64,000 nt of DNA from positions 1,302,001 through 1,366,000 of the forward strand of contig NZ_LS483364.1 of the NCBI RefSeq assembly GCF_900475275.1, given 5' to 3'. The notes under the pieces are model-generated. The model saw nothing but the letters and a program-made list of their open reading frames with translations, was not told where the DNA came from and did no database searches. Below are positions 11,032 to 37,058 of the stretch, in pieces. The first letter of the stretch is position 1. The number at the start of each line of letters is the position of its first letter. The DNA is from Streptococcus sanguinis. Lineage in GTDB: Bacteria > Bacillota > Bacilli > Lactobacillales > Streptococcaceae. The translations under genes and the position numbers were made by a program.

Positions 11032-11036
11032 CAAAG

Positions 11037-11070
11037 AAAGCCTGAGCAAATAGATTTTCAGCAGGCTTTT
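11037..11070 (-). terminator. Terminator after the small membrane protein gene
   Basis: AAAGCCTG and CAGGCTTTT pair across a 17-base loop, between the membrane protein stop (11096) and the M42 peptidase promoter. The run of T on the minus strand is short. Confidence 0.5.
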
Positions 11071-11095
11071 AAGGATTAAATGCAATAAAAACTCC

Positions 11096-11578: not shown

Positions 11579-11801
11579 CCACATCTCCCTTTAAATAAAG
11601 AAACTTCTTCTTATTTTATTATAACAAATCTTCTTTATAAAACAATATTTACTTTTATTTTAAGGTATTTATTGACTATAAAATCAAGCTTAGCAAATTT
11701 CAGCCAATGTAAAAACAGCCATTCAAATGTCTGTTTACTTTAGAGTTTATAAGTTTAAACATCAGTACATTATCGAGAATAGATGGTGACAAAGACAAAA
11801 A

Positions 11802-11827
11802 AATCATCTCAGCTAGCTGAGATGATT
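11802..11827 (-). terminator. Strong terminator after the FctA/SHIRT adhesin gene
   Basis: A perfect 26-base palindrome, AATCATCTC-AGCTAGCT-GAGATGATT, lies just beyond the stop at 11841. A T-run follows on the minus strand. Confidence 0.88.
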
Positions 11828-20600: not shown

Positions 20601-23600
20601 TCCGTGTAAGTCAGTGGATACTCTGGCAAAGCATCGGCTTTTGGTGCATCACCTGGTACCATGTTCGGCTTAGCAGTACCAACTTTTACAACTTGCGTTA
20701 CTGGAGCAAGAGTTTCCTCGTTCGAAAGCTCTTGCCGGTCGATTTCTTGTCCGTTGGAACTATAGACGCGAGTCTTAATCGTACGCTCACCCTGAACACC
20801 CGGGGTTGCGATTTGACGGGCACCACGAACCAATTCGTCCCTTTCTTCTTCACGAATAGTGAAGTTGATTTTTTCAACTCTAGTTTCGTCTGTGAAAGTC
20901 AGTGGATATTCTGGTAGTTCTTCAACCTTTGGTGCTTCACCTGGAATCAGACTTGACTTACTTGTTCCGACCTTAACAACTTGCGTTACTGGAGCTAGAG
21001 TTTCTTCATTGGAAAGCTCTTGGCGATCAATTTCTTGACCGTTGGAACTATAGATGCGAGTCTTGATGGTTCGCTCACCTTGAACGCCCGGAGTCGCAAT
21101 TTGACGGGCATCACGAACCAATTCGTCCGTTTCTTCTTCACGAATTGTGAAGGTGATTTTTTCAACTCTAGTTTCGTCGGTGTATGTCAGCGGATATTCT
21201 GGAAGAACTTCTGTTTTTGGCACATCACTTGGTACCATGTGCGGTTTAGCTGTACCGACTTTGACGACTTGCGTTACGGGAGCCAAGGTTTCCTCATTGG
21301 ACAGCTCTTGACGTTCAACTTCTTGACCATTGGAACTGTAGACACGGGTCTTGATAGTCCGTTCACCCTCAACACCTGGAGTGGCAATTTGACGGGCGTC
21401 CTGAGGCAATTCATCGGTATATTGCTCCTCGATGTTGAAGGCTATTTTCTCAATACGAGTCTCATCCGTATAAGTCAGCGGGTATTCTGGCAAGGCGTCT
21501 GTTTTTGGTGAATCGGTTGGAACCAAATATGGTTTAGCTGTACCAACTTTGACTACTTGCGTCACTGGAGCTAGGGTTTCCTCATTAGATAGCTCTTGGC
21601 GATCAATTTCTTGACCATTGGAACTATAGACACGGGTCTTAATCGTACGCTCACCCTCAACTCCTGGAGTCGCAATTTGACGGGCATCACGAACCAGCTC
21701 ATCAGTCTCTTCTTCACGAATAGTATAGTTGATTTTCTCTACGCGCGTTTCGTCGGTGTATGTTAGCGGGTATTCTGGTAGTTCTTCAACCTTTGGTGCG
21801 TCAGCCGGAATCAGGCTTGACTTACTTGTTCCAACTTTAATAATCTGAGTGACTGCTGCAAGAATTTCTTCATCCGATAAAACTTGGCGGTCAACCTCTT
21901 GGCCATTCGAGGTATAGATACGAGTGGTAATAGCCCGCTCACCCTGGACACCTGGTGTGACAATTTGGCGACTGCCTTCTGGAATCTCATCAGTATACTG
22001 TTCTTCGACGGAAAAATCGATCTTTTCTCTTCTTGTTTCATCCGTCGCAGTCAGCTCTAATTCTGGAGCTTGATGCATGGGTGCTTCATCTGGTGCGGTA
22101 CCATAAGTTGTTAGTTCCGGAACTTCTTGTACTGGCGCTGTATCTGGTGCAGTGCCATACGTTGTCAATTCGGGAACTTCATTCACAGGTGCGGTATCTG
22201 GCGAAGTGCCATAAGTTGTCAATTCGGGAACTTCATTCACAGGTGCGGTATCTGGCGAAGTGCCATAAGTTGTCAATTCGGGAACTTCATTCACAGGTGC
22301 GGTATCTGGCGCAGTGCCATAAGTTGTTAGCTCTGGGACTTCTTGAACCGGTGCTGTATCTAGCGTTGTGCCATAAGTCGTCAATTCGGGAACTTCTTGC
22401 ACGGGTGCTTCATCTGGTGAGGTACCATAAGTTGTTAGCTCAGGCACTTCTTGTACTGGTGCGGTATCCGGTGTAGTTCCATAGGCCGTCAATTCGGGAA
22501 CTTCTTGCACGGGTGCGGTATCTGGTGTAGTTCCATAAATAGTCAATTCTGGGACTTCTTGAACTGGCGCTTCTTTTGGAACAGATTTTACTGCAGCAGT
22601 TCCAACCAACACAATTTCCGAAACTGGCTCTGCAGTTACCTGGTCTGAAACCACTTCGCTTTTTACAATTTCTTTACCTGCAATATAATTGCGAGTGACA
22701 ACAGTACGTGTACCAGCGACACCTGCGCGAATGACCTGAGATTGCCCCTCTGCGAGCTCATTTGAATATTGGTATTCTGTTTGATAAGGCAGGACTTGGG
22801 TTTGGCTGCTTTCTTGGCTCTTGAATTCCAGTTCTGGTACTTCAGTGACTGGAGAAAGCCGAGCAAATTCGCGCTCTTTGGCAGCAATAATCTCTTTTTC
22901 TTGCTCGGTTAGTTTCTCTGTTTCAGTAGATGCTGGCTTGTTGGCAGCACTCGGATTCCCAGAAAGACTAGCAGATTTGCCCGCCTGCTGATCGACTTCA
23001 ACAGCTGACAAGTCCTTCTGTGCCGTAGGAAGCTGATGACTTCCTGCTGTGTTTTCCTTGCCTTGTTCACCGCTTTTAAGATAGCCGACATACTCAAAAC
23101 CAGCAATCTCTAAAGGCTCCGGCAGCTTATCTCCTACTGTCAAATTTAGCCTTTGATTGTAGGCGGCTAATTCAATATTAGTCACTGCAAATACAGAAGG
23201 AGCTAGGAGAATAGAGCCTAGACCCGTCACCAGTAAAATAGAAGACAGGTATCGCTTACCATTTCTACCTCGTGCAATTACTAAGACTGCTAAAGTCAGC
23301 CCAGCAGCTGCAAAAGTTGCTTCCCACAGACTTGAGTAGCCTGTCTTTGGCAAACTTTTTGCCGAAAGCCCCTGGGTCTTAGGACGGTAAACCAGATAAT
23401 AAGCATCAGAGTTTTCTTCCACAAACTTTGGAAGCTCCTTAACAACTGCATTCTTCTCAGCTTCAGTCAGTTCAGACTCTACTACGTAGTGATACTGAAC
23501 TGGAACGGTTTTGCCGGCTGAGACTTCTGCAGCCTCAACCGTACTTATATTTCCCCCTATTGCGGTACTCAAAAAGAAGCTTCCGATAGTGGCGGAAACC

Positions 23601-23665
23601 AATCCTACTGATAACTTTCTAAAAGAATAACGCTGGAGCGTATCGCCAGTGATTCTTTTTTCCAT
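14648..23665 (-). CDS. zmpC: Giant surface zinc metalloprotease, M26 family (ZmpC/IgA1 protease type)
   Basis: 3005 residues. The N terminus has a YSIRK-type signal (YSFRKLSVG, from residue 13). LPKTG at 105-109 followed by two hydrophobic helices (about 116-160) is the unusual N-terminal sorting arrangement of streptococcal M26 proteases. Then come a divergent G5-like segment, nine 18-residue repeats (about 364-526), ten 96-residue G5 repeats (about 532-1491), two FIVAR-like helical segments (about 1495-1640) and GLUG-type beta-helix repeats (about 1920-2090). The C-terminal protease domain has HEMTH (His2651, Glu2652, His2655) and Glu2675 twenty residues later, matching the HExxH-X20-E zinc site of the family. 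The stretch EGNGRREGLGAE and the C terminus look closer to ZmpC than to IgA1 protease, but this is from memory. Its host substrate cannot be read from sequence. It is transcribed alone. Confidence 0.92.
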   Translation of the reverse strand: MEKRITGDTLQRYSFRKLSVGLVSATIGSFFLSTAIGGNISTVEAAEVSAGKTVPVQYHYVVESELTEAEKNAVVKELPKFVEENSDAYYLVYRPKTQGLSAKSLPKTGYSSLWEATFAAAGLTLAVLVIARGRNGKRYLSSILLVTGLGSILLAPSVFAVTNIELAAYNQRLNLTVGDKLPEPLEIAGFEYVGYLKSGEQGKENTAGSHQLPTAQKDLSAVEVDQQAGKSASLSGNPSAANKPASTETEKLTEQEKEIIAAKEREFARLSPVTEVPELEFKSQESSQTQVLPYQTEYQYSNELAEGQSQVIRAGVAGTRTVVTRNYIAGKEIVKSEVVSDQVTAEPVSEIVLVGTAAVKSVPKEAPVQEVPELTIYGTTPDTAPVQEVPELTAYGTTPDTAPVQEVPELTTYGTSPDEAPVQEVPELTTYGTTLDTAPVQEVPELTTYGTAPDTAPVNEVPELTTYGTSPDTAPVNEVPELTTYGTSPDTAPVNEVPELTTYGTAPDTAPVQEVPELTTYGTAPDEAPMHQAPELELTATDETRREKIDFSVEEQYTDEIPEGSRQIVTPGVQGERAITTRIYTSNGQEVDRQVLSDEEILAAVTQIIKVGTSKSSLIPADAPKVEELPEYPLTYTDETRVEKINYTIREEETDELVRDARQIATPGVEGERTIKTRVYSSNGQEIDRQELSNEETLAPVTQVVKVGTAKPYLVPTDSPKTDALPEYPLTYTDETRIEKIAFNIEEQYTDELPQDARQIATPGVEGERTIKTRVYSSNGQEVERQELSNEETLAPVTQVVKVGTAKPHMVPSDVPKTEVLPEYPLTYTDETRVEKITFTIREEETDELVRDARQIATPGVQGERTIKTRIYSSNGQEIDRQELSNEETLAPVTQVVKVGTSKSSLIPGEAPKVEELPEYPLTFTDETRVEKINFTIREEERDELVRGARQIATPGVQGERTIKTRVYSSNGQEIDRQELSNEETLAPVTQVVKVGTAKPNMVPGDAPKADALPEYPLTYTDETRVEKVAFNIEEQYTDELPQDARQIATPGVQGERTIKTRVYSSNGQEIDRQELSNEETLAPVTQVVKVGTAKPHMVPSDAPKADSLPEYPLTFTDETRVEKINFTIREEETDELVRDARQIATPGVQGERTIKTRVYSSNGQEIDRQELSNEETLAPVTQVVKVGTAKPNMVPSDALKADSLPEYPLTFTDETRVEKINFTIREEETDELVRGARQITTPGVQGERMIKTRVYSSNGQEVDRQELSNEETLAPVTQVVKVGTAKPTMVPNEAPKAEALPVYPLTYTDETRVEKIIFTIREEETDELVRDARQIATPGVQGERTIKTRVYSSNGQEIDRQELSNEETLAPVTQVVKVGTAKPNMVPGDAPKADALPEYPLTYTDETRVEKINFSIREEETDELVRDARQIAIPGVQGERTIKTRVYSSNGQEIDRQELSNEETLAPVTQVVKVGTAKPHMVPNDAPKADALEEFDLIQLHNLLAEADQIKAQARYFNDSQSHQSSYDTALTAGQALLSQSHASQAEVNQLVGQINQAKAQLSGLEVVKTALQTEYDLNPTVKTTAKYKNADSNKQTAYTDELAKAEGVLNNQTATQVQVNQAFASLTAAKEALNGVPKVKPTVSILSLTENADDKSVTVQYRLEDLTQSFRSATAELYQGDQLVRTLPITNFAGSLKIGDLDYYTGYTLKTKLTYELDNGSFTDLETDSRNFELEYKKIAFRDIDSAEFYRKENDQFKRVVSMSSMPTDLSTYFVKVKSSESKEMLLPVHSIAESHKDGRDVYKVTVSLPELVQEGETGYKSGYDFYISKAVPSQQNVYTSFAGLIDAMKKNMAGNYVLGADLDASEVSLAPADYVYLKGNFTGSLTGNHNGKQYAIYNLAKPLFENLKSGSSISNLDLKEVNIVGTYDSAALARNAENARITDVSVQGRVEVKENASQVAGLVVIANNTQITNSSFTGTIVSNDKQGKEYNVGGLVANLKGGNSLISQSRADVTILAGARANNQRFGGLVGRLENNARISRSYVAGKIQNSTKNGQIGGVVGSNYFNGLIDNVISNVSGTNVYSISGDQGYENNRITEAYAVEGNTTLENDKFVTSTLTLNEAEEKLADLDITTTLEDTNLNIYSVNYAQEKNAREDRLIAYANMEKLLPFYNKETIVAYGNKLPDNHKLNTEYLLDVVPMKGDQIITDINSNKTGINRLMLHFEDNTVDYLDLTYKGDFKYKAIAEYSVNGLDLLYTPEAFLSDYSRILNQVLPELNQVVLDSPAMRTVLGVNADTSLDDLYLDTAFDQVKTKLSEELRKVLAMDKSINTEGNVVADYIAQQIKDNKEAFLLGLTYLNRWYNINYDNINVKELSAYKFDFFGNHNASTLDTIISLGKSGMNNLKAKNNYMAYDASLSEATGKRGLFNYLESYRQLFLPDKSNNEWLKTNTKAYIVEAKSDIAEARQLQDAAEDKSKYSVGVYDKITADNWEHKGMLLPLLTMTEKGVYAISNMSTISMGAYDRYRLDANGRVRTDAELAEFVEDRVRKTAEYQRDHYDFWYKILSDESKDKLFRSVLVYDGFSLVDKNGQKYWAPANDKKSLAMQEFFGPAGKWYPSKGYNAYATGSVTHFDAAKLLEDYGNSVYTHEMTHNSDGGIYFEGNGRREGLGAELYARGLLQSTPSADEATITLNTLFKVDKDSKTRLHTYNFKERVQNAEDLQHYVHGMFDMIYTLDYLEGTSMLKQSDDAKLQWFRKMENYYITDKYGKETHAGNQTRSFTAEEIKQLKTFNSLIENDVITRRENKDSGKYGRNGYLSLSLFSPIYSALSNPNGAPGDVMFRRTAYELLAAKGYHEGFIPYVSGKYSKEAFDEGKKTWDGWSGRDVGLITDQKVLENVFKGEYDSWVAFKKAMYQERINQLTKLKPITIEYELRNPSSTKKVTIRSYEEMQKLMDEAVAEDVRNIANATSRVDSSWVNLLKKKIYNAYIRETDDFRQSIFNK
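19190..22070 (-). repeat. Ten tandem 288-bp G5-domain repeats in the metalloprotease gene
   Basis: Each unit encodes 96 residues with the core YPLTYTDETRVEK, RQIATPGVQGERTIKTR, VYSSNGQEIDRQ and VTQVVKVGTAKP. Two alternative cassettes occur in one segment: EEQYTDELPQ or similar in units 1, 3 and 6, and REEETDELVR in the others. Nearly identical units and mixed cassettes point to recombination among repeats. Confidence 0.9.
22085..22575 (-). repeat. Nine tandem 54-bp repeats in the metalloprotease gene
   Basis: Each unit encodes about 18 residues of the type APVQEVPELTTYGTTPDT. Units 6-8 carry VNEVPEL instead of VQEVPEL and are almost identical in DNA, which suggests recent duplication. Confidence 0.9.
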
Positions 23666-23811
23666 AATAATTCCCTTTTCTCCATATAATAATCTCTTAA
23701 AATTTTACAGAATTTCCTACAAAAATTCAATGCTTTTGCTTAAAAATATATCTTTGAAAGCTGAAATCATCATGTTTTTGAACAACCTGAAAATAGTGTT
23801 CATTTTTAACT

Positions 23812-23847
23812 AAAAAAACAAATCTTCGGTTAGAAAATTTGCTTTTT
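23812..23847 (-). terminator. Terminator at the end of the seven-gene lipid operon
   Basis: On the minus strand AAAAAGCAAAT pairs with ATTTGTTTTTT (one G-T pair) and runs into a T-tract, 20-30 bases beyond the GNAT stop (23870). The metalloprotease promoter must lie between this hairpin and 23665. Confidence 0.65.
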
Positions 23848-23869
23848 AAAATGTGATTTACTTTGTTAG

Positions 23870-24943
23870 TCAGGAGTTCAAATTCAACTCAAAGAGACCA
23901 TACTCATGCTTGTCTCCTTGCAATTCCGCTGCATAGTGGCGCGTGACTGTTTTTTGATGAATCAAGGCTCCAATAGCTGAGGCTTGTCGCTTCTGCGCTT
24001 CTTTAAAAATCGGATAGGCCAAGGCAGAGCCCAACCCCAAGAATTCTTCATCTACTCCTAGATACATAATCGTATAACGTTTGGGAAAGCGCTTAGCCCA
24101 AAAAAGCTTGGCTAGGTTAAGAGGAGTCAGTTTTTGATAAACCAGAGAACCGTAGTCCGGCATGGCAATCAGAAAACCAGCCAGCATGCCCTCCTTATAG
24201 GCCAGCTTAACCATAGAAAAATCAAGAATATACTGGTATTTCTGAAAAATCTGACTGAACTGCTGACTGGAAATAGACCGATAAATCGGAAAATCTTGAT
24301 AGAGGCGATTGAGAAGCTCAAAAACCTGCAGCGAAGCTTCTTCCCAATCCTGCTTCTTAGGAGAGCAAATGGTGAAACCTGCTTTTTCAAAAGACTCAAA
24401 GCGATGAGCCAGCTTGTCCTGATGAGTTTGATTGCTGACCTTGGGATAAAAATTGGATAAATAGCGCTCCTTGAGCTCAAAACCAGCAGCCTGCCACATC
24501 CGGGGATAATAGTCTGGATTATGAGGTTCTCCAGTAAAAGGAAGCTCCTCTGTTCCAGTCAGCTGCATTCGATAGCCCAGCCAAAAACTTGCCTGTACGG
24601 GGCCGATTATCTTAATCGCTCCGAGACTGCGAGCAAAACCTGCTAAATGCTCGATAAAAGCAGATGCAATCCGTTGATCATTGATCGACTCGAAAAATCC
24701 CAAGTAAGCAGCCTCATCACCTGGATAGAAGGTCAGGAGCCCTCGAATACAAGGCCGACTGTCCACATAGCCAATAAAAGCATAGGTTTCTAAGTCAGAA
24801 CTCAGCGGGTGACTGCCTTCAATCAAAGCCAGTTCTTCCTCTTCCGACTGCATGAGGTGGACTGGCTGGTAAATCTGTTTGGGCAGGGCTAGAAAATCGG
24901 CCAGCTCTACAGTATTGGGTTTGACTGGTTTAATTTCCAGCAT
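23870..24943 (-). CDS. GNAT-like N-acyltransferase, last gene of the lipid operon
   Basis: 357 residues, long for a single GNAT domain and possibly two tandem GNAT folds. The C-terminal half shows a motif-A-like acyl-CoA segment, LGVDEEFLGLGSALAYPIFKEA. The middle holds KIIGPVQASFWLGYRM and a Pro/Tyr-rich stretch. ATG 24943 overlaps the preceding dikinase gene by 14 bases and follows GGAGGA. By position it would transfer an acyl group in the pathway encoded upstream, for example to an amine made by the decarboxylase-like protein; that is inference. The family is recognised only at the fold level. Confidence 0.7.
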   Translation of the reverse strand: MLEIKPVKPNTVELADFLALPKQIYQPVHLMQSEEEELALIEGSHPLSSDLETYAFIGYVDSRPCIRGLLTFYPGDEAAYLGFFESINDQRIASAFIEHLAGFARSLGAIKIIGPVQASFWLGYRMQLTGTEELPFTGEPHNPDYYPRMWQAAGFELKERYLSNFYPKVSNQTHQDKLAHRFESFEKAGFTICSPKKQDWEEASLQVFELLNRLYQDFPIYRSISSQQFSQIFQKYQYILDFSMVKLAYKEGMLAGFLIAMPDYGSLVYQKLTPLNLAKLFWAKRFPKRYTIMYLGVDEEFLGLGSALAYPIFKEAQKRQASAIGALIHQKTVTRHYAAELQGDKHEYGLFELNLNS

Positions 24944-27413
24944 GGTCTTCCTCCTTGATTAGTCGAATCTTGCCAGTAAGGCCATCCATCTCAATCCAGT
25001 CACCATTTTGCAGCTGGCTGCAGGCGCCTCTAACATTGACAATGGAAGGAATACCTAGCTCGCGGGAAATAATGGCCGTGTGCGAGAGCAAAGACCCCTG
25101 CTCGGCAATGACACCCTTGGCTTGGGTCAGAAGATAAACCCAGCCCGGATCGGTCATCTTGGTCACGATAATCCGGTCCTGAGCAGACTCAATCTCCTGC
25201 ACATCTTCCACGACCAAAACCTGAGCCTTAACGCAGCCAGGTGAGCAGCCAATCCCTTGTAAGGCTTGATTGCTCGTATTATAACTGCTGGTGCGGTTTT
25301 GCGGTTTCATATATTTCTCAAAGACTTGTCCAGTAAAAACATAGCGACTAAAGGTTGGCAGTTCCTTGTCAGCCTCCAACTTCTCCCGACGCTCGGCTAT
25401 CAAGCCACTAACATCTCTGGGCTTTCTGGTCAACTCAAACAATTCTTCCTTTGTCAGGTAAAAAACATCGTCAGGCATAGCCAGCAGCCCTTGCTCGGCT
25501 AATTGCTGCCCCAATGTTCGGAAAATCTGCCGCATCATACCGTAGATCCGTGTGCGGTTTAAGCGTGAGCTTTCCCGATATTTAACACCAGCCATGGCTC
25601 GCTTGCGAAGAAAATTCGCCCACCAACCTGATTTTTGCTCCTCTTCTTCAAGTTTCTGAGGAGCCAACTTCTTCTCCTCTTGCTGGCACATTTGCAGCAG
25701 GAGCTTGAGCAGACGCTCTGGATGCGTTCGGAAGGTTGATGTTTCTAACTTCAACTCTTCCGGAGCCCGATCGCCAAATTCATGGATAAAATGGACTATT
25801 TCTTGAACCAAAGGATGCTGGCGACTTAGAAAGACTGCTGAGCTTTCAGTTTCCATAGCCTGTCTAATATCTGCATTTTCTTCTGCTTTCAGCTGAGCTG
25901 TTAAAGCCTGCAGAGCCAAAGCCGGCCTCATACTTTCAATCTGCTCAATTCCTGCAATCTCAGCCTGAACAGCCCCGCCGCGACGCGACTTCTTTAGCAG
26001 TCCAGTATAGACAAAAGCATAGAGGTCATTGACTAGCGTAATGTCCCAGTGAGCCAGAATATCCTCTTTTAGCTTGCTGACCAAGGTAATCAAGGTCTCC
26101 GCATCTGCATCAGGAGAAAAGCTCGCTTCGTATTCGCGCTGAATCTGGGCAAACTGCTCTTCCAATTGTCGCATTTGCTTGGGAGCCGTCCAAAACTCTC
26201 GGATGATTCGGAGCATGATTTGCAGGCGTTTGAAAGCGGACAGGTGCACTGGCATCTGAGGCACCTCCGTCTCTCTCACTCCCAGCATATCCTGCCAGAT
26301 AGGAATGATTTTCTTAGAAAAAGGCAGAAGCTGCAAGAGCTGATACCAGCTCTGAATCTGGTAATAAACACGACTATTGACCGGCTGCAGCATATTTTGA
26401 AAAGTAGCTTCATAGGCAGCCAACTCAGGGGCACCCTTGCCAACCAAGCGCTGGGCCAGACTGCGGAAAATGCTAGCATAAGCCTCTTGGATAAAACTAA
26501 TAGTCAGAGGGCTAGAAACTCCCGGATAACTTTCAACAATATTGCTATTATCCAGAATAATCTGCTGTCCCTCTGGCAAGGTGGTAATAGGTCGTGCTTG
26601 CAAGAGATAGAGTTGGCCATTGGCGAAGGTAAACTCCATATCCATATAAGGTCCGAAAAGCTGACTCACCTGACCAGCTAAAGATTGTAGCTCCTTGAGT
26701 TGTTCCTGTGATACGTCTGGTGAGTCCTCCGTCTGCTCTGTATAAAAGAGCTGGTCCTTGGGATGGAGGGTCACCATTGTCGTAGGAATCTTATCCTCAA
26801 CAACCTTGTTGCCCAAGCCCCGACCGATAACAATGATATGCTCGTTCAGAATGCCCTTGGGATTAGCTGTGAAGTAAATCCCAGACAAGTCTCCCTCCTG
26901 CATGACCTGCACAAGACAAATCATCTGAGCTTGCTTCAAAGATAGGCCTTGCTCAAACAGATAACTAAGAGCTGACTCCTGATAAAGAGAGAGTAAGGTC
27001 GCTTGAATAGCTTCTTTAAGCCCCTCTGGCTTCACGTTGAGCTGGCTCTCAAACTGACCGGCAAATGAGGAAGCCTTGCCATCCTCAATGGTAGCAGATG
27101 AGCGGACTGCAAAGCGACAGTCTTTCTGAAAAAACTCCTGCCGGATCCAGCTTTCTGCTGCTGTCAGATCTTCCCGCGCAAACTGCTCTTTAGCCCAGTC
27201 CTGCAGTTGTTGACTGAGTTGGGACAAGTCCAACTCTCCAGACCGATAAGCTTCTTCCATCCGCTCCAAGTCAGCAGAGCTGGCAGATTCTTGAAAAAAG
27301 TCAAAAGCAAACACAGCAAAGTCAGGAACCGGCAAACCAGCAGCCTGCATTTTCAGCAAATGATAGGCCTTGCCTCCAACCCGGTCAAGCCCTGTCTGCT
27401 TGATTCTTTTCAT
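24930..27413 (-). CDS. PEP-synthase/rifampin-phosphotransferase-like dikinase (second copy)
   Basis: 827 residues. The N-terminal ATP-grasp domain (1 to about 280) holds VRSSATIEDG (103-112) and LQARPITTL (271-279), as in pyruvate,phosphate dikinase and PEP synthase. A central helical region of about 400 residues is unlike known enzymes. The C-terminal swivelling domain has the phosphohistidine motif SLLSHTAIISRELGIP (His778). The protein ends soon after it, so the PEP/pyruvate TIM barrel of true PEP synthase is missing. Known enzymes with this layout (rifampin phosphotransferase) move the beta-phosphate of ATP to an alcohol, releasing AMP and phosphate. Here the acceptor is presumably a lipid intermediate. 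ATG 27413 shares its A with the UbiA-like stop (TGATG). Confidence 0.85.
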   Translation of the reverse strand: MKRIKQTGLDRVGGKAYHLLKMQAAGLPVPDFAVFAFDFFQESASSADLERMEEAYRSGELDLSQLSQQLQDWAKEQFAREDLTAAESWIRQEFFQKDCRFAVRSSATIEDGKASSFAGQFESQLNVKPEGLKEAIQATLLSLYQESALSYLFEQGLSLKQAQMICLVQVMQEGDLSGIYFTANPKGILNEHIIVIGRGLGNKVVEDKIPTTMVTLHPKDQLFYTEQTEDSPDVSQEQLKELQSLAGQVSQLFGPYMDMEFTFANGQLYLLQARPITTLPEGQQIILDNSNIVESYPGVSSPLTISFIQEAYASIFRSLAQRLVGKGAPELAAYEATFQNMLQPVNSRVYYQIQSWYQLLQLLPFSKKIIPIWQDMLGVRETEVPQMPVHLSAFKRLQIMLRIIREFWTAPKQMRQLEEQFAQIQREYEASFSPDADAETLITLVSKLKEDILAHWDITLVNDLYAFVYTGLLKKSRRGGAVQAEIAGIEQIESMRPALALQALTAQLKAEENADIRQAMETESSAVFLSRQHPLVQEIVHFIHEFGDRAPEELKLETSTFRTHPERLLKLLLQMCQQEEKKLAPQKLEEEEQKSGWWANFLRKRAMAGVKYRESSRLNRTRIYGMMRQIFRTLGQQLAEQGLLAMPDDVFYLTKEELFELTRKPRDVSGLIAERREKLEADKELPTFSRYVFTGQVFEKYMKPQNRTSSYNTSNQALQGIGCSPGCVKAQVLVVEDVQEIESAQDRIIVTKMTDPGWVYLLTQAKGVIAEQGSLLSHTAIISRELGIPSIVNVRGACSQLQNGDWIEMDGLTGKIRLIKEEDHAGN

Positions 27414-28312
27414 CAAAGTACCCCCATCAAGAGATAAACAGCAACGGACAGAACCATGGTCGTCTCCGTGATATAAGTATAACGCTCTACCCGCTCCCGG
27501 ATATTAAAGCGAGTCGGATCCTTGATAAACTGCTCAAACTGGACAGTCATCCAGATGACATTCAGCACCAAGACCACCACTCCGACATGGGAAATATTCC
27601 AGAGAAGAGCGAAATTGGTCAAGATATCCAGCAGAGTCACCACCTCGATAAAGCGAGTGGCTTTTTTGTAGCCAAAAAGCTTAGAATAGGTCACATACTC
27701 TGTCTCGTCTTTGGGAGCCCGAATCTTGCGGCAGACTTCCCAGATCAGACTTGGGAAATACATGGTAAAGGCCAGCAAAACGGTCGGCAGGGACAAGAGA
27801 GGCAGGTTATACTTGTAGCAGACAAAAGAGATAGTATAGAGATTCAAAATCATCATGACTGGATTATGGGTCACTAGAGCCAGTGGCAGAGAATTTTGAA
27901 TCTTATCACGCTTGAAGAACCAGAAGGACATGAGAGTTCCGTAGATATAGAGAAAGAGGAACCAGCCGATATTATTCATAAAGAGAACATTGAGAAGTAC
28001 AGACACAGCTACGATAAAGCTGAGGGCAATAGCCAGGTCCTTCTTTTTCACCCGGCCAGATGGCAGAGCCCGATGAGGAAAGAGCCGTCTGTCGGTCTCA
28101 TAGTCCTTGAAATCATCTGCAATCCGCAGAATCATCAGAAAGACAAAAATCGTAAAAATCCCAATCAACTCCTGATGGTCAAAGTGAAAGGTGGTCACTC
28201 CGTCATTGAGCAAGAGGACAAAATAAATCTCAAAAAACATGATGGCAGCCACAAAAAAGCGCGGCAGCAAAGGAAACATTTCCTTATAATAAACAGCTAA
28301 TCGTTTAAACAT
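27413..28312 (-). CDS. UbiA-family prenyltransferase-like membrane protein
   Basis: 299 residues with about eight hydrophobic helices. The first Asp-rich motif IADDFKDYETD (Asp66, Asp67, Asp70, Asp74) and the following PHRALPSGRV match the NDxxDxxxD site of UbiA enzymes. The second site is a looser EVCRKIRAPKDETEYVTYSK. UbiA enzymes transfer a prenyl group from a diphosphate to an acceptor inside the membrane. The family includes digeranylgeranylglyceryl phosphate synthase of archaeal lipid synthesis as well as quinone and haem enzymes. The acceptor here is unknown. The start overlaps the decarboxylase-like gene by 16 bases. Confidence 0.8.
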   Translation of the reverse strand: MFKRLAVYYKEMFPLLPRFFVAAIMFFEIYFVLLLNDGVTTFHFDHQELIGIFTIFVFLMILRIADDFKDYETDRRLFPHRALPSGRVKKKDLAIALSFIVAVSVLLNVLFMNNIGWFLFLYIYGTLMSFWFFKRDKIQNSLPLALVTHNPVMMILNLYTISFVCYKYNLPLLSLPTVLLAFTMYFPSLIWEVCRKIRAPKDETEYVTYSKLFGYKKATRFIEVVTLLDILTNFALLWNISHVGVVVLVLNVIWMTVQFEQFIKDPTRFNIRERVERYTYITETTMVLSVAVYLLMGVL

Positions 28313-29169
28313 AGCTTTTCTCCAATCTTTTCACCCATTTGAATCTGGGTTTCTATTCCGAGGTCTGAGTAAGTCAGGATATCCTGATCCAAGCGAATCG
28401 TGTCTGCCGGATAGAGGACAAGAATAGTTGAGCCGCCCAGACCAAAGCAGCCCTTCTCCTGTCCCCTAACCAAATGATCCTGACTGTGATTGTATATTCT
28501 TCCGACCAAGAGAGCCCCTACTTCCATCTGCAGAACAGGTCCTAGGTCGGTATCTAAAAGACAGTATTCTCTTTTATTTTCCTTATAAATCAAGCGCCGC
28601 TTCTGGGCTACCTGCCTGACCGTATGGAGGCGTCCCTTGATTTTTCGACTTTGGGTAATTCTGTCGGATTCAGCTGCTAGATAGCGGTGCAGGTCTTCCA
28701 CTCCCAAACGATAGACAAGAGCTGTTCCGCCACTAAACAGTTGAGCCAATTCTTCATCCAGCAGTAAGTCAGCTAGACTATAAATCTGACCCTTAATCGT
28801 CAACTGTAAGTCCTGACTGATGGTAAAAGCCTCCAGCTTGGCATCCGCCACAGCCAGTACTTGACTGTCAGGACAGACTGGACGCAGGGCGGGCTTGATT
28901 TTCCGCTGAAAAAAAGCCGCAAAGCTAGGATAGGGTCCATCCTCATAGTCAGCCAGATTCAGCTGATAATTTTCCACAAAAGCTGCTATTTTCTTGCGAG
29001 AAAAAGGAGTGTAGTCTTTCAAAGTTAGAAGATAAGACAGGCTAGGTCGGGTCAAGAAAGGCAACAAGATGCGGCCCCAAGCAGTACCATAAAGCTTATC
29101 TAACAGACCCGCCTTGTATTCTGTTGGTTCCAGTACTTGGCCAGTCCTTCTCTGATAGACCTTAACCAT
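28297..29169 (-). CDS. Phosphatidylserine-decarboxylase-like protein
   Basis: 290 residues. Family landmarks are SFAAFFQRKIKPALRPV, a VADAK segment (Asp109), EDLHRY (His161), KIKGRLHTV, EVGALLVGRI and the self-cleavage/pyruvoyl site GLGGST (Gly246-Ser247). The closest resemblance I recall is to clostridial-type decarboxylases. The enzyme would turn a phosphatidylserine-like lipid into its ethanolamine form at the membrane. One oddity: the usual HRxH after the conserved Asp-Tyr reads HRYL, so the second His is Leu164. I chose ATG 29169 because it overlaps the upstream gene by only 8 bases; an upstream TTG at 29190 is in frame. Streptococci generally lack phosphatidylethanolamine, so the gene is unexpected. 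Confidence 0.82.
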   Translation of the reverse strand: MVKVYQRRTGQVLEPTEYKAGLLDKLYGTAWGRILLPFLTRPSLSYLLTLKDYTPFSRKKIAAFVENYQLNLADYEDGPYPSFAAFFQRKIKPALRPVCPDSQVLAVADAKLEAFTISQDLQLTIKGQIYSLADLLLDEELAQLFSGGTALVYRLGVEDLHRYLAAESDRITQSRKIKGRLHTVRQVAQKRRLIYKENKREYCLLDTDLGPVLQMEVGALLVGRIYNHSQDHLVRGQEKGCFGLGGSTILVLYPADTIRLDQDILTYSDLGIETQIQMGEKIGEKLCLND

Positions 29170-29794
29170 GCGGGAGAACCCCCAGACCAATCAGACTTGC
29201 AACAGCTAAAATCGCAAAGACTAGATAGGCCAGCTTATTTGGCTTGGGAATCCGGCAGTTGTAGACAAATAGAAAGGTCAGCAAAAGAGACAAGCCCAGC
29301 CACACCCAAGCAAAGAGACCAGGCGCCAGCCATTGACTGACCAGATAGGTCAGAGGGAAAAATAGGGCACTGTAAGTCACGGGCAAGCCGATAAAATAAG
29401 ATCCAGATCCTTCATCATGCTTGGCCAAGCGGTTAAAATGTGCCAAGCGCGTAACCGCAGCTAAGGCATAGAGGACAGCCAAGATGATATTGGCCGCTCC
29501 CAAGGGCAGCTGAGTCATGAGGAGCATAGCCGGGAGAGCCGCAAAGCTAATCATGTCGCAGAGCGAATCAATTTCAATGCCGAAGCGCTTCTGACTTTCA
29601 GTCCGCTTCATCCGTCGCGCCACCACACCGTCAAAGAGGTCGCAGATACCGCTAACGATAAAGGCCATCATGGCTAGCCGCAGCTGGGACTGAATGACGG
29701 CATAGACTGCCAACAGTGCAAAAGCAGCGCCCATATAGGTCAGGATAACAGATTTATCGTATTCACCGATAAACAAAGGTTCATTCTTCTTCAT
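29162..29794 (-). CDS. CDP-alcohol phosphatidyltransferase (phosphatidylserine-synthase-like)
   Basis: 210-residue membrane protein with the complete family signature: DLFDGVVARR (Asp52, Asp55) and FGIEIDSLCD (Asp76, Asp80). These residues bind divalent metal and the CDP-activated lipid. A GLPVTYSALFFPL stretch further on recalls PssA rather than PgsA. It would swap CMP for a small alcohol, plausibly serine given the decarboxylase-like gene that follows. I chose ATG 29794, with GAGGAG some 12 bases upstream, over ATG 29821, which has no ribosome site. The start overlaps the first dikinase gene by 14 bases. Confidence 0.85.
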   Translation of the reverse strand: MKKNEPLFIGEYDKSVILTYMGAAFALLAVYAVIQSQLRLAMMAFIVSGICDLFDGVVARRMKRTESQKRFGIEIDSLCDMISFAALPAMLLMTQLPLGAANIILAVLYALAAVTRLAHFNRLAKHDEGSGSYFIGLPVTYSALFFPLTYLVSQWLAPGLFAWVWLGLSLLLTFLFVYNCRIPKPNKLAYLVFAILAVASLIGLGVLPHG

Positions 29795-32276
29795 GAATTC
29801 GTATTTCTCCTCTTCTTCCATCTAAAGTTACCATCATGCCAGTTTCTAGCAGCTGAGTTGCATTCTTAGCGCAGACCAGAGCTGGAATTCCGCATTCCCG
29901 AGCGACAATGGAGGCATGACAGAGAACTCCACCGTACTCTGTCACTAGACCGCCTAGAATACCAAAAACATAGCTCCAGCCCGTATCTGTATAGCGAGTG
30001 ACAAGAATTTCTCCTGGCTCAATCGTCTCAATATCAGCCAAATCCAAGAGGACGCGAACCCGACCGGTCACCTGACCACTGCTGGCTGGCATTCCCGTCA
30101 GCAGAGCCCGACTGTCATGGGCTACCTCTTCCAAGCTCATCTCTTTGTCGGTCAAATCACCCACTGGTTCAAAATTCCGATAGGCCTGGCAATAATGCTG
30201 ATTATCAGCCGCTTCTTCTTGAAGCTTGTCGGCAGTCTTTTGCCCTTCCATAAAGGCAGTCAGACTTTCTTTCTTAATGTAAAAAATATCTTGAAAATCT
30301 TTCAGAAAACCTCGCTTTTCATAAGCTCGACCGAGTTTGAGGCTAATCTGACGAATGAGGTGGTAATAGCGCGTGGAAATATCCTTGAACTCCTCCCGCC
30401 ACCAGAGCAAGTTCCGCAGGTCTTCACTAATTTTTTCTATCTTTTTCTGCTTGGCTCGAGATAGATGAGCAAGATCAAGTTCAGACTCTGAGACAGGACT
30501 GAGCGAAGCTTTGGCCGCCTGGTAGTAAGCTGAATCAGCAACCAACTGTTGAATCGCTGTCAGGACCTGATGAGCATCTTCTTCGTAACTCGCTACTCGT
30601 AAGTCCAGCTCCCGTGCCGAGTGATAGCCAAAGTCCTTTTGGAAATCCTGAATCTTGATAAAATCAGCTCGCTCAGGATATTGTGCAGTCAGTCCCTGCA
30701 ACTCTTCCACTGATAGCTTCAACCAATCGTCTGTCAGTTTCTCGTCTTCCAAAATAAGATCCGCAGCTTCCAGCATCCGAGCCAAAGGCTTGGTATGCGA
30801 AACATTTCCTAACTTAGCTATCAGTTGGAAAAATTCATCGACCGTCAGCCATTTGAGGAGACTGGTCTTTTTCATAGACAGCTGGACCGTATTGATGTAG
30901 GCCTGCCAGAAATAAGTTCCCTCACTGTCTAAATAAGCCTGATTTAGCACTAATTGCCAAAGACTCTCGACCTGCTGCAGTGGACTTTGATCGTCTAGTT
31001 CTTGTATTTTTTGATTAAGATGGTTAAATTGCTGGCGCAGCTCTTGCAGCTTCTCTGGCGCCTGATGCAGAAAAGTCTTAGTTACCTTTTGTGTTTTTAA
31101 AGCTACCCGCAGGAAATTCAAGAGCAAGGCTGGACTTAATTTGCTGGTAAAACCTTGACCTTGGTAGTCTTTATTAACTCCCAGCTCATCATCAAAGTCA
31201 CGTTCAATATAGCCTGGAATTTGCTCCATGCCTTGCTTGACCACGCCTAAGTTCCAGAAAGGCCGTGCATAATGGAGACGCATCAGCGGAGGCATCACAC
31301 CATCTGGCTCTAGGCCAATTGCCAGCAAAAAGCTAGAGAGTGCCTCTTGCCAAGAATAACGATAAAGGCTCCACATCAGGTTTGGACAGGGCTGGGCCGC
31401 CACGCCTCCATCCCGAAAATTAGCCGTCGTCCAGCGGCCACTGTCTATTTTAGTTGGAACTGTTGTGATGGGCCGAGCCTGCAGCAAATAGACTTGCTCT
31501 TGTACGGCACACCACTCAATATCCATCGGCCGACCAAAATACGCTACAATCTCCAAAACCTGCGAGTGCAGCTTCTGCAAGACTGCCATAGGCATTTCAA
31601 CTATTTCAAGCTGGCTCCAGTCCGGCTTGTACCAAGAAAGAGTCAGTTGCTCAGGATTAACTTGACCGCTAACCAAGCTCTCAGCTGAGCCTTTTACATA
31701 CTCCAATAGCATGGTCTGGTCCTGATTTGTTGCCACGTCTAGGGAAAAGCAGACACCGCTAAAGTCAGGCTTTATCTGCTCCTGAATCAGCACCGCCATG
31801 GCAAAATCCTGTTCTGCCAGACCCTGACGCTGCCAGTAGGCCAAGGCTTCAGGATTAAAAAGGGAAAGCAGACAGGAACGAATGCCCTGCTCAATTTCTG
31901 ACAGTGTCCGGCAGTTGCCGATCGAGTCATATTGGCCAGCAAATGACATGGCCTGTCCGTCTTCTAAGAGGGCACTGCTGCGAACGATATAAGCTTGATT
32001 TTGCTGACAAAAGGCTGCTAACTCCCGCTGCCAAGCTGGATCCAAGGGATAGTGCTGCAAACGCTCCGCAATTTCCTCCTTGCCCAGTTCGATGAATTCT
32101 TTAAGTCCCTGTTTTGAATATTCTGGCAGAGCCGCTCTTAGCCAAGCCATTACTTGATCCGCAGGCAAAATCAAACCCTTAGGAACCGAATGCCCCAGTT
32201 GACAGAGGTTGATTAACTGATTGATTTTACCGCCATAGACGACTGAAGGCTCTTTTTCCAGCCATAGTTCTTTCAT
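29781..32276 (-). CDS. PEP-synthase/rifampin-phosphotransferase-like dikinase (first copy)
   Basis: 831 residues from ATG 32276, chosen because GGGAG stands just before it. The domain order is as in the paralogue at 24930-27413. The ATP-grasp domain has VRSSALLEDG (98-107) and LLQARPITTV (264-273). A central region of about 450 residues follows, then the swivelling domain with GGVLCHASIVARECGIP (His787). It ends about 45 residues later without a PEP-binding barrel. Having both an ATP-grasp site and a phosphohistidine predicts a pyrophosphoryl and then phosphoryl transfer from ATP to a bound acceptor. The two copies are clearly homologous but their central regions differ, suggesting two acceptors or two steps. 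Confidence 0.85.
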   Translation of the reverse strand: MKELWLEKEPSVVYGGKINQLINLCQLGHSVPKGLILPADQVMAWLRAALPEYSKQGLKEFIELGKEEIAERLQHYPLDPAWQRELAAFCQQNQAYIVRSSALLEDGQAMSFAGQYDSIGNCRTLSEIEQGIRSCLLSLFNPEALAYWQRQGLAEQDFAMAVLIQEQIKPDFSGVCFSLDVATNQDQTMLLEYVKGSAESLVSGQVNPEQLTLSWYKPDWSQLEIVEMPMAVLQKLHSQVLEIVAYFGRPMDIEWCAVQEQVYLLQARPITTVPTKIDSGRWTTANFRDGGVAAQPCPNLMWSLYRYSWQEALSSFLLAIGLEPDGVMPPLMRLHYARPFWNLGVVKQGMEQIPGYIERDFDDELGVNKDYQGQGFTSKLSPALLLNFLRVALKTQKVTKTFLHQAPEKLQELRQQFNHLNQKIQELDDQSPLQQVESLWQLVLNQAYLDSEGTYFWQAYINTVQLSMKKTSLLKWLTVDEFFQLIAKLGNVSHTKPLARMLEAADLILEDEKLTDDWLKLSVEELQGLTAQYPERADFIKIQDFQKDFGYHSARELDLRVASYEEDAHQVLTAIQQLVADSAYYQAAKASLSPVSESELDLAHLSRAKQKKIEKISEDLRNLLWWREEFKDISTRYYHLIRQISLKLGRAYEKRGFLKDFQDIFYIKKESLTAFMEGQKTADKLQEEAADNQHYCQAYRNFEPVGDLTDKEMSLEEVAHDSRALLTGMPASSGQVTGRVRVLLDLADIETIEPGEILVTRYTDTGWSYVFGILGGLVTEYGGVLCHASIVARECGIPALVCAKNATQLLETGMMVTLDGRRGEIRIHEEE

Positions 32277-32290
32277 CAAAAACTCCCATC

Positions 32291-32881
32291 TCACATACGA
32301 TTTTTTCTAAGCTTAGCCCAGTAGAGCAGGCGATTGACTCCTAGATGCGTGCCTGCCCCTAGGATTAAAATGTCCAGCATCTGCTGCCAAGACAGAGGGA
32401 TATAGAAAAGCAAGAAAATAATACAGCCAATCAAGGAATCAATCTGGTCTATCCAGATAAAGGTCCATTTCCAGCCATTCTCCGCCGTCTTGCCCTCTCT
32501 GATTTCCAAACGGCGCTTGATAAAGCTATTGGGCAGCTCAAACAAAACATAAGCCAGCCCCAAAAGTGCTCCAAGCACCAGATTAAACAACACGGTATTT
32601 TCGTAAAAAGCATAGACCAAGTGCAGATTCTCAAGGGTAGGAATACTCTTTAAGAGCAATCCCCAAAGAATCTGCGCCAAAGCTCCCCAGATAATCATGC
32701 CTAGAAAGCCTTTCCAGGTCTTGTTAGCCCCAAACATCCTCTTCCCATCCTTTAAAATCAACCCACCATCCATTGGTCGATAAGCCGCCTCTAGCAGTGA
32801 AGACTTGCAAAAGATCATATTCAGTACTCCAGCCAGAATGACCGGCATCAGGGTGATATATAAGGCAAGAATCGAACGCAT
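32291..32881 (-). CDS. CDP-archaeol-synthase-like cytidylyltransferase (CarS/DUF46 family)
   Basis: 196-residue membrane protein, first gene of the seven-gene operon. It has the signature blocks of the CarS family, related to CdsA: a loop RPMDGG...RMFGANKTWKG (about 35-58), LGLAYVLFELPNSFIKRRL (107-125) and FIWIDQIDSL (141-150). Such enzymes use CTP and a lipid phosphate to make a CDP-lipid. The cell would have its normal CdsA elsewhere, so a second and archaeal-like version suggests an unusual lipid phosphate as substrate. AGGAAA precedes ATG 32881. Confidence 0.8.
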   Translation of the reverse strand: MRSILALYITLMPVILAGVLNMIFCKSSLLEAAYRPMDGGLILKDGKRMFGANKTWKGFLGMIIWGALAQILWGLLLKSIPTLENLHLVYAFYENTVLFNLVLGALLGLAYVLFELPNSFIKRRLEIREGKTAENGWKWTFIWIDQIDSLIGCIIFLLFYIPLSWQQMLDILILGAGTHLGVNRLLYWAKLRKNRM

Positions 32882-32952: not shown

Positions 32953-32961
32953 ATTATATCA
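32953..32961 (-). promoter_or_regulatory. Probable extended -10 promoter of the lipid operon
   Basis: The minus strand reads TGATATAAT about 75 bases before the CarS-like start. A good TTGACA (32991-32996) lies upstream but 32 bases away, too far to be its -35; it may belong to another start or be chance. Confidence 0.5.
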
Positions 32962-33142: not shown

Positions 33143-33197
33143 CTTTTATTATAAAAGGCTTTTAAAACTTTGTAAAGAAGGGTTTTATAATAAAAAG
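33143..33197. repeat. Inverted repeat between the galE terminator and the lipid operon promoter
   Basis: CTTTTATTATAAAA (33143-33156) is repeated inverted as TTTTATAATAAAAAG (33183-33197), enclosing about 26 bases that are themselves partly self-complementary. It is separate from the compact galE terminator. Confidence 0.55.
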
Positions 33198-33201
33198 TAA
33201 A

Positions 33202-33224
33202 AAACCAGCTTTTCTAGCTGGTTT
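33202..33224 (-). terminator. Terminator of the gal operon
   Basis: AAACCAGC and GCTGGTTT pair across a 7-base loop just beyond the galE stop at 33231. A T-rich minus-strand tail follows. Confidence 0.8.
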
Positions 33225-33230
33225 GTCAGT

Positions 33231-34232
33231 TTATCCTCTGTCATCATAGCCGTTTGGATGACTGAAATGCCATTTCCAAGCGGTTTCGATAATGGTTTCA
33301 ATATTGTCGAATTTCGGCTGCCAACCCAGAACCTTCCTTGCCTTCTCAGAGGAAGCAATCAGCGTATCCGGATCGCCTGGGCGCCGCTCTGCTATTTCCA
33401 AAGGAATAGGATGTCCAGTCACCTTGCGGGCTGCTTCTACAATCTGAAGGTTGGAAAAACCAGTCGAAGAGCCAAGGTTAAAGGCATCTGAAGGTTGTCC
33501 GGAACGCAGATGCTCAACAGCCAGAATATGGGCGTCAGCCAAGTCGAAAGGATGGACATAATCGCGGACATTGGTCCCATCCAGAGTATTGTAATCGTCA
33601 CCAAAGACGGCAATCTTCTCACGTTTGCCCTGAGCCACCTGAAGCACAATGGGCAGGAGATGGGTTTCAGGTCCGTGGTCCTCGCCGATTGAGCCGTCGG
33701 GCTTGGCACCGGCCACATTGAAATAACGCAGAGCTACAAACTTGATCCCATAGGCCCGGTCTGCCCAGCGCATAATGGTCTCCATCATAAGCTTGCTCTC
33801 ACCATAAGGATTGATCGGCTTTTGCGGAGTCGTTTCCAGAATCGGAACTTCCTCAGGAATGCCATAAGTCGCAGCAGTTGAAGAAAAGACAATGTTTTTA
33901 ACGCCGCATTCCTGCATGACCTCCAAAAGAGAAACCATGCCGGCCGTGTTATTATCAAAATACTTGAGCGGGTCCGCCATGGACTCGGCGACCAGTGAAA
34001 AGGCAGCAAAATGAATGACTGCATCGATGGACGGATGTTTGGCAAAAACGCCACGCATAAAGTCCTTATCCGCCAAATCTCCCTCATAAAAAACTGCTTG
34101 TGGATGGACGGCTGCCCGATGACCAGTCACCAAATTATCAACGACGACTACTTCTTCCTTACCTGCTGCTACCAGACGGTCTACCATGTGCGAGCCGATA
34201 TAGCCAGCTCCACCTAATACTAAAATTGCCAT
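33231..34232 (-). CDS. galE: UDP-glucose 4-epimerase
   Basis: 333-residue cytoplasmic enzyme interconverting UDP-galactose and UDP-glucose, the last step of the Leloir pathway. The N-terminal Rossmann motif GGAGYIGSH (NAD binding) is followed by the SDR catalytic segment: Thr/Ser in SSTAATYG, then the YxxxK pair in NPYGESK. The C-terminal part has [15 protein letters not shown] and the RPGDPD motif of GalE. ATG 34232 follows GGAAGGGAAG; an in-frame ATG 42 bases upstream lacks a ribosome site. It is the third gene after galK and galT. Confidence 0.96.
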
Positions 34233-34277
34233 AAAACTTCCCTTCCTTGTTACATTAGATTCATTATAACACATTTC

Positions 34278-37004: not shown

Positions 37005-37037
37005 AAGCTAAACTCCTTTAAAATGAATAATCGATAT

Positions 37038-37051
37038 TGTAATCGTTTTCT
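37038..37051 (-). promoter_or_regulatory. cre site downstream of the galK -10
   Basis: The minus strand reads AGAAAACGATTACA, matching the CcpA consensus TGAAANCGNTTNCA at all but the first position. It lies just after the -10 box, where CcpA would block transcription when glucose is present. Confidence 0.65.
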
Positions 37052-37058
37052 TGGTTTT

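Follow-up and report, generated by a model that had tools for sequence, protein, structure and literature searches.

Why would a Streptococcus genome carry a compact operon whose genes resemble steps of lipid synthesis, and what would such a pathway make? This question is raised by seven open reading frames (ORFs), g1 to g7, which the ORF list places one after another, all in the same direction, between 32881 and 23870 on the minus strand of a 64,000-nucleotide stretch of Streptococcus sanguinis DNA (contig NZ_LS483364.1, positions 1,302,001 to 1,366,000; the window). An earlier interpretation made from the letters alone (the sequence-only reading) had described them as an operon for a lipid unexpected in a Streptococcus. 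The operon finding is real and stronger than first stated, as the genes form an order-conserved cassette and have a homologous core in a second type of operon. We put at about even the chances that the operon has spread by lateral exchange and is dedicated to making a single membrane phospholipid, isoprenoid-containing and of the serine-derived ethanolamine type, probably N-acylated.

Gene content and conservation of the operon

The first gene, g1 (32291..32881), encodes a CarS-like cytidine diphosphate (CDP)-lipid synthase of 196 residues (PF01864). It is followed by g2, or DK1 (29781..32276), for a dikinase (DK) of 831 residues from its ATG that resembles the rifampin phosphotransferase Rph (PF01326 and PF00391). 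The 219-residue g3 product (29162..29821) is a CDP-alcohol phosphatidyltransferase of the PssA/archaetidylserine synthase type (PF01066), the 297-residue g4 product (28297..29190) resembles phosphatidylserine decarboxylases of the pyruvoyl type (PF02666), and the 299-residue g5 product (27413..28312) is a UbiA-superfamily prenyltransferase (NF010118). A second Rph-like phosphotransferase, DK2 (PF01326, PF00391 and NF004882), is encoded by g6 (24930..27416; 827 residues from ATG 27413), and g7 (23870..24943) encodes a tandem-GNAT acyltransferase of 357 residues, recognized from its predicted structure. All of these genes are on the minus strand. The families named in the sequence-only reading were borne out: g1 to g6 passed the Pfam cut-offs of CarS-like, PPDK_N plus PEP-utilizers (twice), CDP-OH_P_transf, PS_Dcarbxylase and UbiA, and g7 was placed among the GNAT enzymes via its predicted structure. 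The ORF list starts g2 at GTG 32294, in place of which we took the ATG at 32276; the likelier starts of g3 and g4 are the ATG codons at 29794 and 29169. With these ATG starts, a 14-base gap separates g1 from g2, and the subsequent genes overlap by 14 (g2/g3), 8 (g3/g4), 16 (g4/g5), 1 (g5/g6) and 14 bases (g6/g7), which agrees with the tight packing described earlier.

The search of genomes for the conserved seven-gene set, which had been suggested as a check, was run. The decarboxylase gene g4 was found in 22 of 247 Streptococcus genomes, and all seven genes were present in each of these 22. The gene order was the same in 21 of them, the window included; for the remaining genome (G046, locus L089), presence only was read. 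Among the carriers are S. sanguinis, S. cristatus, S. sinensis, and a strain recorded as S. gordonii. Among 295 Lactobacillales genomes, the NF010118-type UbiA was found in 13, which belong to 9 of the 74 genera. Ten of these 13 genomes (seven genera) had all seven genes in the same order, whereas the other three (G287, G438, and G481; two genera) had six-gene operons without DK1. Lactobacillales carriers include Abiotrophia defectiva, Carnobacterium sp. 17-4, Desemzia sp. RIT804, 'Candidatus Enterococcus willemsii', Vagococcus sp. BWB3-3, and Vaginisenegalia massiliensis. A common order of all seven genes in seven Lactobacillales genera, with two further genera holding six of the genes, shows that the gene set is conserved beyond chance. 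DK2 was part of every operon read among the 22 Streptococcus and 13 Lactobacillales sets. No DK1 orthologue was found elsewhere in the three genomes with six-gene operons, where the best DK1 matches were their DK2 genes. Two dikinases are therefore not obligatory. No flanking gene was common to all 13 loci compared, with some shared between close relatives, so the cassette looks self-contained.

The operon is thus rare in the genus (22/247), and in this respect the description as unexpected in a Streptococcus stands. In contrast, the operon is a Lactobacillales cassette, and homologues of its UbiA and GNAT proteins are also recorded from Clostridia. These close single-protein homologues are in Acetatifactor (UbiA) and in Acutalibacteraceae, Oscillospiraceae, and Lachnospiraceae (GNAT). 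Of 398 genomes drawn across the phylum, only the window's genome matched at E 1e-30, and no plasmid relatives of the g5 and g1 proteins were found at E 0.01.

The proteins are 57–72% identical to those of Abiotrophia, except for UbiA, which is 93% identical. In the DK2 tree, five sanguinis-group rows joined two Abiotrophia-like rows with support of 100/99; the remaining Streptococcus rows, G190 and G026, branched outside this group. Because the sanguinis group is placed with Abiotrophia and not with other streptococci, the tree, which covers DK2 alone and has several long branches, suggests lateral transfer of the operon. All seven genes are under purifying selection, with dN/dS of about 0.02–0.13 (compared with 10 of 20 sanguinis-group loci), and g5 is the most constrained, with the lowest value (0.021 vs. 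0.082–0.125 for the other six).

Some loci deviate in detail. In G102 (L069), g1 and g6 each match in two pieces, and in S. gordonii DD07 (L034), g7 matches over a shorter stretch with 80% identity; in both, sequencing error or decay may be the cause. In one genus (L064:4606-6220 and L065:6046-7241), the six-gene operons are preceded by genes that, by eye, resemble UppP/BacA (undecaprenyl diphosphatase) and glycosyltransferases.

Enzyme families and a second operon type

The three headgroup genes resemble enzymes of known chemistry. The g1 protein scored 62.7 bits against PF01864 (cut-off 22), and its family profile matched the solved CDP-archaeol synthase 5guf (E 3.5e-7). Both have the stretches DGxRLxG..KT and SFxKRRLxIxxG...LDQ, so that g1 carries the CarS motif. 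Its score against the NCBIfam CarS equivalog was below the cut-off (75.6 of 148 bits). For g3 (PF01066, 47.6 bits), the best NCBIfam models were archaetidylserine synthase (89.7 bits, cut-off 240) and pssA (82.5 bits, cut-off 107). These are serine enzymes, and both scores are below their cut-offs. The sole solved chains matched by the g3 family profile at E<=0.001 were the phosphatidylserine (PS) synthases 7pow and 7b1k. The g3 protein has the CDP-alcohol signature D-x2-D-G-x2-A...G-x3-D-x3-D, in which D61, D64, G65, A68, G81, D85, and D89 are invariant in 12/12 rows, and the Arg after the Ala varies in three rows. The g4 protein matched PF02666 (E 4.8e-43), and its family profile matched the phosphatidylserine decarboxylase (Psd) of E. 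coli, 7cnw (E 2.7e-30). The processing-site Ser254 and His168 of the D-x-H motif were invariant in 16/16 rows, consisting of 12 operon rows and four other homologues. Against the NCBIfam Psd models g4 remained below the cut-offs, with 205.3 of 371 bits at best. The second His of the E. coli DYHRxH stretch is mostly missing in g4 and the rows aligned with it.

The window's genome contains one CdsA-type match, apart from the operon, and two CDP-alcohol transferases, of which one is g3 and the other presumably PgsA. No other match to the g4 Psd was found in this genome. It has a single trans-prenyl synthase, and some other operon genomes have two or three. Because the genome has its own CdsA, one other CDP-alcohol transferase and one trans-prenyl synthase, g1, g3, and g4 do not look like a housekeeping set. 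The operon would add a second CDP-lipid branch, and any isoprenoid donor would come from the housekeeping supply in this genome. The earlier view of a self-contained lipid operon agrees with these results, as the serine-type CDP-alcohol transferase stands beside Psd, with no second Psd match and with CdsA separate. GGGP synthase (PcrB/GGGPS, PF01884) exceeded its cut-off in none of 11 operon genomes; there was no match in the window's genome, and a single match below the cut-off, over 54 profile positions, in G026.

Published lipid data include a strain with the operon. Locus L024, in which all seven genes are present, comes from S. sanguinis ATCC 10556, and this strain and S. gordonii were among those covered by a lipidomics study. 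The consulted parts of that study describe phosphatidylethanolamine (PE) as more prevalent in Gram-negatives and report PE, plasmalogens, and phosphatidic acid at very low levels only, and its main text is silent on PS (PMC11052126). CdsA in S. mitis and S. oralis is the subject of another study, consulted in part (PMC5404519). Among the listed matches of an open-access literature search, none gave an account of the gene set, which does not imply its absence from print.

The g5 protein is assigned to NF010118 with 597.9 bits (cut-off 443), and its family profile matched the solved DGGGPS 6m31 (E 6e-4). DGGGPS motif 1 (D66-x3-D70) is kept, with D66 and D70 invariant in 11/11 rows. In the consulted sections of PMC9385802, motif 2 is defined by the Tyr and Lys of a capping loop and motif 3 by D183, D187, and D190 of MjDGGGPS. 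Motif 2 is absent from g5, which has no Lys at the fifth or sixth residue past Tyr124. Motif 3, the second Asp-rich motif, is replaced by E192..R195-K196 in 11/11 rows.

Both dikinases have the core of phosphohistidine enzymes. The g2 protein consists of an ATP-binding domain, a middle part, and a phosphohistidine domain, and its closest solved chains are 5hv2, 5fbs, and 5hv1 (E about 5e-52). The database record names these chains phosphoenolpyruvate (PEP) synthase; we take them to be rifampin phosphotransferases. The His motif was present in 7/7 DK1 rows, and an eighth row (L064) was a DK2 match. The g6 protein scored 1638.7 bits against NF004882 (cut-off 850), a model also named PEP synthase. 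Its ATP-binding and phosphohistidine parts align to 5fbs, and the His motif was present in 8/8 rows. Neither g2 nor g6 reached the NCBIfam Rph cut-off (230.3 and 197.7 of 999 bits, respectively). PEP synthesis by g2 or g6 was considered and rejected: the C-terminal PEP/pyruvate-binding barrel was not found, and Pfam gave only PPDK_N and PEP-utilizers. The name PEP synthase is thus doubtful for DK2 and its kin, and likely a misleading database name. DK1 and DK2 are also related to prodigiosin ligases (255 and 214 of the 1300-bit cut-off). The contexts of other dikinase relatives, in Phaeobacter, Deinococcus, and Natrinema, gave no lipid link; those in Arthrobacter and Nonomuraea carry no gene annotation and are hence uninformative on this point.

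The g7 protein is, according to its predicted structure, a tandem GNAT, with two GNAT folds in one chain. Its best structural matches were tandem GNATs, including glucosamine N-acetyltransferase and mycothiol synthase, and its match to the Pfam family Acetyltransf_1 was just under the cut-off (20.0 of 20.7 bits). A kinship with bacterial ceramide synthases was also considered, and a literature search on it found nothing.

A second type of operon (type II; the Lactobacillales operon is type I) was found on an alphaproteobacterial plasmid of Roseinatronobacter (L072:523-8507), where the genes for UbiA, DK, DUF3419, a membrane-like protein of 439 residues, GNAT, and an AMP ligase stand in a row. 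A class-wide search (398 genomes, E 1e-7) returned the window's own genome and three others, all from one Bacilli genus and with the same gene order (L083-L085, about 302-11825). These three are also the only ones with the type II UbiA among 39 genomes of that Bacilli family. A phylum search with both UbiA types hit 2/398 genomes, and the only other hit, G803, lies outside any such operon. In the Bacilli, an HMG-CoA reductase gene precedes the operon, as identified by Pfam in L083 and L084 and by place and N-terminus in L085; a P450 gene follows it, as identified by Pfam in L083 and by place and N-terminus in L084 and L085. The UbiA, DK, and GNAT of L083 are homologous to g5, g6, and g7 (BLAST E 5e-23, 4e-102, and 8e-11). 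For the Roseinatronobacter plasmid, homology was found by BLAST for UbiA and DK, and by hhalign (97.9%) for GNAT and g7. The Bacilli type II UbiA rows have a Lys at the sixth residue after the position of g5 Tyr124.

Judged from these sequences, the UbiA-DK-GNAT core recurs and the enzymes encoded between its members vary: CDP, serine, and decarboxylase enzymes in type I, DUF3419 in type II. We take DUF3419 to include BtaA of betaine lipids. For an isoprenoid part, the strongest indication is the HMG-CoA reductase gene of the Bacilli operons. An isoprenoid core with exchangeable amine headgroups is supported because UbiA-DK-GNAT recurs with DUF3419 and, in the Bacilli, with HMG-CoA reductase. 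The idea of N-acylation is indirectly supported, since a homologous GNAT occurs in the second operon type together with a different amine-bearing headgroup enzyme.

Profile comparison did not tie the 439-residue type II protein to CarS (0.7%). It matched no Pfam family, NCBIfam family, or solved chain, and by eye it resembles phytol/dolichol kinases. A more distant DK-UbiA pair was seen on a Streptomyces clavuligerus megaplasmid (L076:7355-14033), with AfsA, ICMT, dikinase, UbiA-like, and oxidoreductase genes in a row; the UbiA-like protein, annotated as hypothetical, is under the Pfam cut-off (19.6 of 34.2). In Streptomyces durmitorensis (L074), AfsA, ICMT, nitroreductase, dikinase, and P450 genes were observed.

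Transcription signals and neighbouring genes

One promoter before the operon and one terminator after it had been proposed. The terminator is likely: a hairpin with a T run lies 3' of g7 on the minus strand, within 23805..23860 (z -5.04, equalled in 0/200 shuffles). A simple terminator scan did not list this hairpin and found 10 terminators in the window vs. 11.2 in shuffles, i.e., the number expected by chance. The promoter part is weaker. A promoter-like site at 33148..33176 (-) agrees with 11/12 consensus positions and is a consensus match only, and an extended -10 promoter-like element, TGATATAAT, was seen by eye at 32953..32961 (-), ~70 bases before g1. The window contains 19 promoter-like sites vs. 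10.7 in shuffles, so a single match is weak evidence.

The upstream neighbour is a galE-like gene (33231-34274), and a hairpin at 33195-33230 (z -3.8) closes the upstream gal genes. No cre-like site for CcpA control was found near the operon, and one-mismatch sites in the whole window numbered 5 vs. 5.5 expected. The nearest cre-like site (37037-37052, both strands) is before a galK-like gene; it has one mismatch, and the site count is not above chance. From locus order and product name, we presume that DK1 is SSA_1012 of S. sanguinis. As far as the consulted parts of two studies show, SSA_1012, named phosphoenolpyruvate-protein phosphotransferase, was quantified by proteomics and was 0.42-fold in a signal peptidase mutant (PMC5817204), and it was among the genes raised in a ccpA mutant, from 330.19 to 900.52 (PMC6904348). 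Transcription reading through out of the gal operon might explain this rise, because the operon has no cre-like site of its own and the nearest is before galK.

Downstream, a gene at 14648-23665 (-) encodes a 3005-residue surface protein with many near-identical repeats and a HEMTH zinc-protease motif, probably of the IgA1-protease kind as judged by eye. No Rfam families or tRNA genes were found in the window.

Proposed pathway, its rivals, and the nearest known systems

The following route is inferred throughout, in its reactions and substrates as well as in their sequence. The UbiA enzyme g5 would make or extend the hydrophobic core by attaching an isoprenoid chain to an acceptor, either a small lipid or a glycerol-type molecule, a step that we somewhat favor. 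One or both Rph-like enzymes would phosphorylate the alcohol of the core or of the chain, using ATP via phosphohistidine; that DK2 phosphorylates a lipid alcohol is an evenly balanced assumption. The DK may instead act on the chain alcohol or the acceptor and not feed CarS. The CarS-like g1 would then make the CDP-lipid, which we consider probable. Next, g3 would swap CMP for serine, and g4 would decarboxylate the serine headgroup to its ethanolamine form; such a serine-to-ethanolamine headgroup is distinctly probable. Finally, the tandem GNAT g7 would acylate the resulting amine, an assignment that may as readily be right as wrong.

Several observations weigh against this route. The role of the DK is the weakest point of the mechanism: three operons lack DK1, and type II has no CDP route, so the DK there is not explicable as feeding CarS. 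The replacement of the third motif of g5 by Arg195-Lys196 means that ordinary diphosphate chemistry is not assured. The operon lacks a prenyl synthase, and with one of the trans type in the genome the chain donor would be shared. Abundant ordinary PE in ATCC 10556 would have shown in the lipidomics study, whose consulted parts do not address a modified lipid (PMC11052126); this speaks against abundant ordinary PE as the product. FecCD-like genes near the Bacilli operon, seen by eye, would also fit a secreted metabolite.

Such a metabolite, namely a prenylated, acylated amine serving, for example, as a signal or metal-binding compound, is an unlikely product of the operon in place of a bulk membrane lipid. 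The sporadic distribution is like that of natural-product clusters, both dikinases are related to prodigiosin ligases, and type II adds an AMP ligase and, in the Bacilli, a P450, with the FecCD-like genes nearby. The distant UbiA-DK pair of S. clavuligerus, with its UbiA below the Pfam cut-off, also lies beside the A-factor gene AfsA. However, the genes in the middle of the Lactobacillales operon (CarS-like, PssA type, and Psd) are those of textbook chemistry for phospholipid headgroups, and no exporter travels along, as the 13 loci have no further gene in common. If the headgroup genes are taken by themselves, g3 and g4 could make ordinary PS and PE from CdsA-made CDP-diacylglycerol, with the other genes serving something unrelated: g3 resembles pssA, the best score of g4 is to phosphatidylserine decarboxylase, and CdsA is present in the window's genome. 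We regard this as improbable, since g3 and g4 stand with UbiA, CarS-like, and DK2 genes in 35/35 genomes read, the window included, and each of them retains its own CarS-like gene, even though a CdsA exists in the window's genome. The very low PE in the consulted parts of PMC11052126 points the same way.

Two further alternatives start from the isoprenoid side. UbiA and the dikinases could act on C55 isoprenoids to decorate or recycle the undecaprenyl carrier, with phosphoethanolamine-type groups for cell-wall or glycan work. Polyprenyl diphosphates are substrates of UbiA enzymes, and the UppP/BacA-like and glycosyltransferase-like genes upstream are common to L064 and L065; but such neighbours were found in one genus alone among the 13 loci, which leaves this alternative with a poor chance. 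Import into bacteria of a canonical archaeal-type diether phospholipid, archaetidylethanolamine, is very unlikely. The UbiA, CarS, Ass/PssA, and Asd/Psd homologues would account for four of the five archaeal steps, whereas a dikinase and a GNAT are not part of the archaeal route as reviewed in the consulted sections of PMC9385802. The full archaeal pathway was rejected because GGGP synthase was over the cut-off in 0/11 operon genomes and g5 does not keep DGGGPS motifs 2 and 3.

If a dedicated isoprenoid phospholipid pathway is indeed what the operon encodes, a common mouth commensal makes a membrane lipid that its genus would not be expected to have, and archaeal-type and bacterial lipid pathways are less sharply separated. 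The same lipid-core module would be reused with different headgroups across phyla. There is a fair chance that the UbiA-DK-GNAT core defines a new lipid class. Only tentatively do we propose its fuller form, an undescribed class of bacterial isoprenoid lipids with phosphoserine/phosphoethanolamine in Lactobacillales, an amino-carboxypropyl ether in Bacilli and alphaproteobacteria, and an acylated head amine in both. Oral streptococci would then be producers of an isoprenoid phospholipid. The dikinase family would be extended to lipid chemistry; to our knowledge, an Rph-like dikinase in membrane lipid synthesis would be the first of its kind.

Among known systems, the archaeal archaetidylethanolamine pathway (GGGPS, DGGGPS, CarS, Ass, and Asd) is alike in its UbiA enzyme, CarS-like enzyme, serine-type CDP-alcohol transferase, and Psd/Asd decarboxylase, which here form one operon. 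The operon differs in its bacterial hosts, in the lack of GGGPS over the cut-off in 11 operon genomes, in a UbiA without DGGGPS motifs 2 and 3, and in its additional enzymes, namely a tandem GNAT and either one or two phosphotransferases of the Rph-like kind. With the bacterial PssA-Psd route to PE it shares the headgroup steps, serine and then decarboxylation, but it has its own CarS-like enzyme despite CdsA, is tied to UbiA, DK, and GNAT, and is rare in the genus. Compared with Rph and PEP synthase-like dikinases, g2 and g6 have the same ATP-binding and phosphohistidine domains and catalytic His, whereas they differ in their linkage to lipid genes, in scores far under the Rph cut-off, and in having no PEP/pyruvate barrel found. 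Phytol salvage, in which two kinases feed a UbiA-type phytyltransferase, is alike in placing kinase-like enzymes beside a UbiA enzyme, but the operon encodes enzymes of the dikinase class. For BtaA, diacylglycerol is the known substrate, and neither UbiA nor a dikinase is known to take part. In type II, in contrast, the DUF3419 gene of betaine-lipid kind stands with UbiA, DK, and GNAT, and it is not part of the Lactobacillales operon. The new element is that this UbiA-DK-GNAT core recurs in operons of a second type, found in a single Bacilli genus and on an alphaproteobacterial plasmid.

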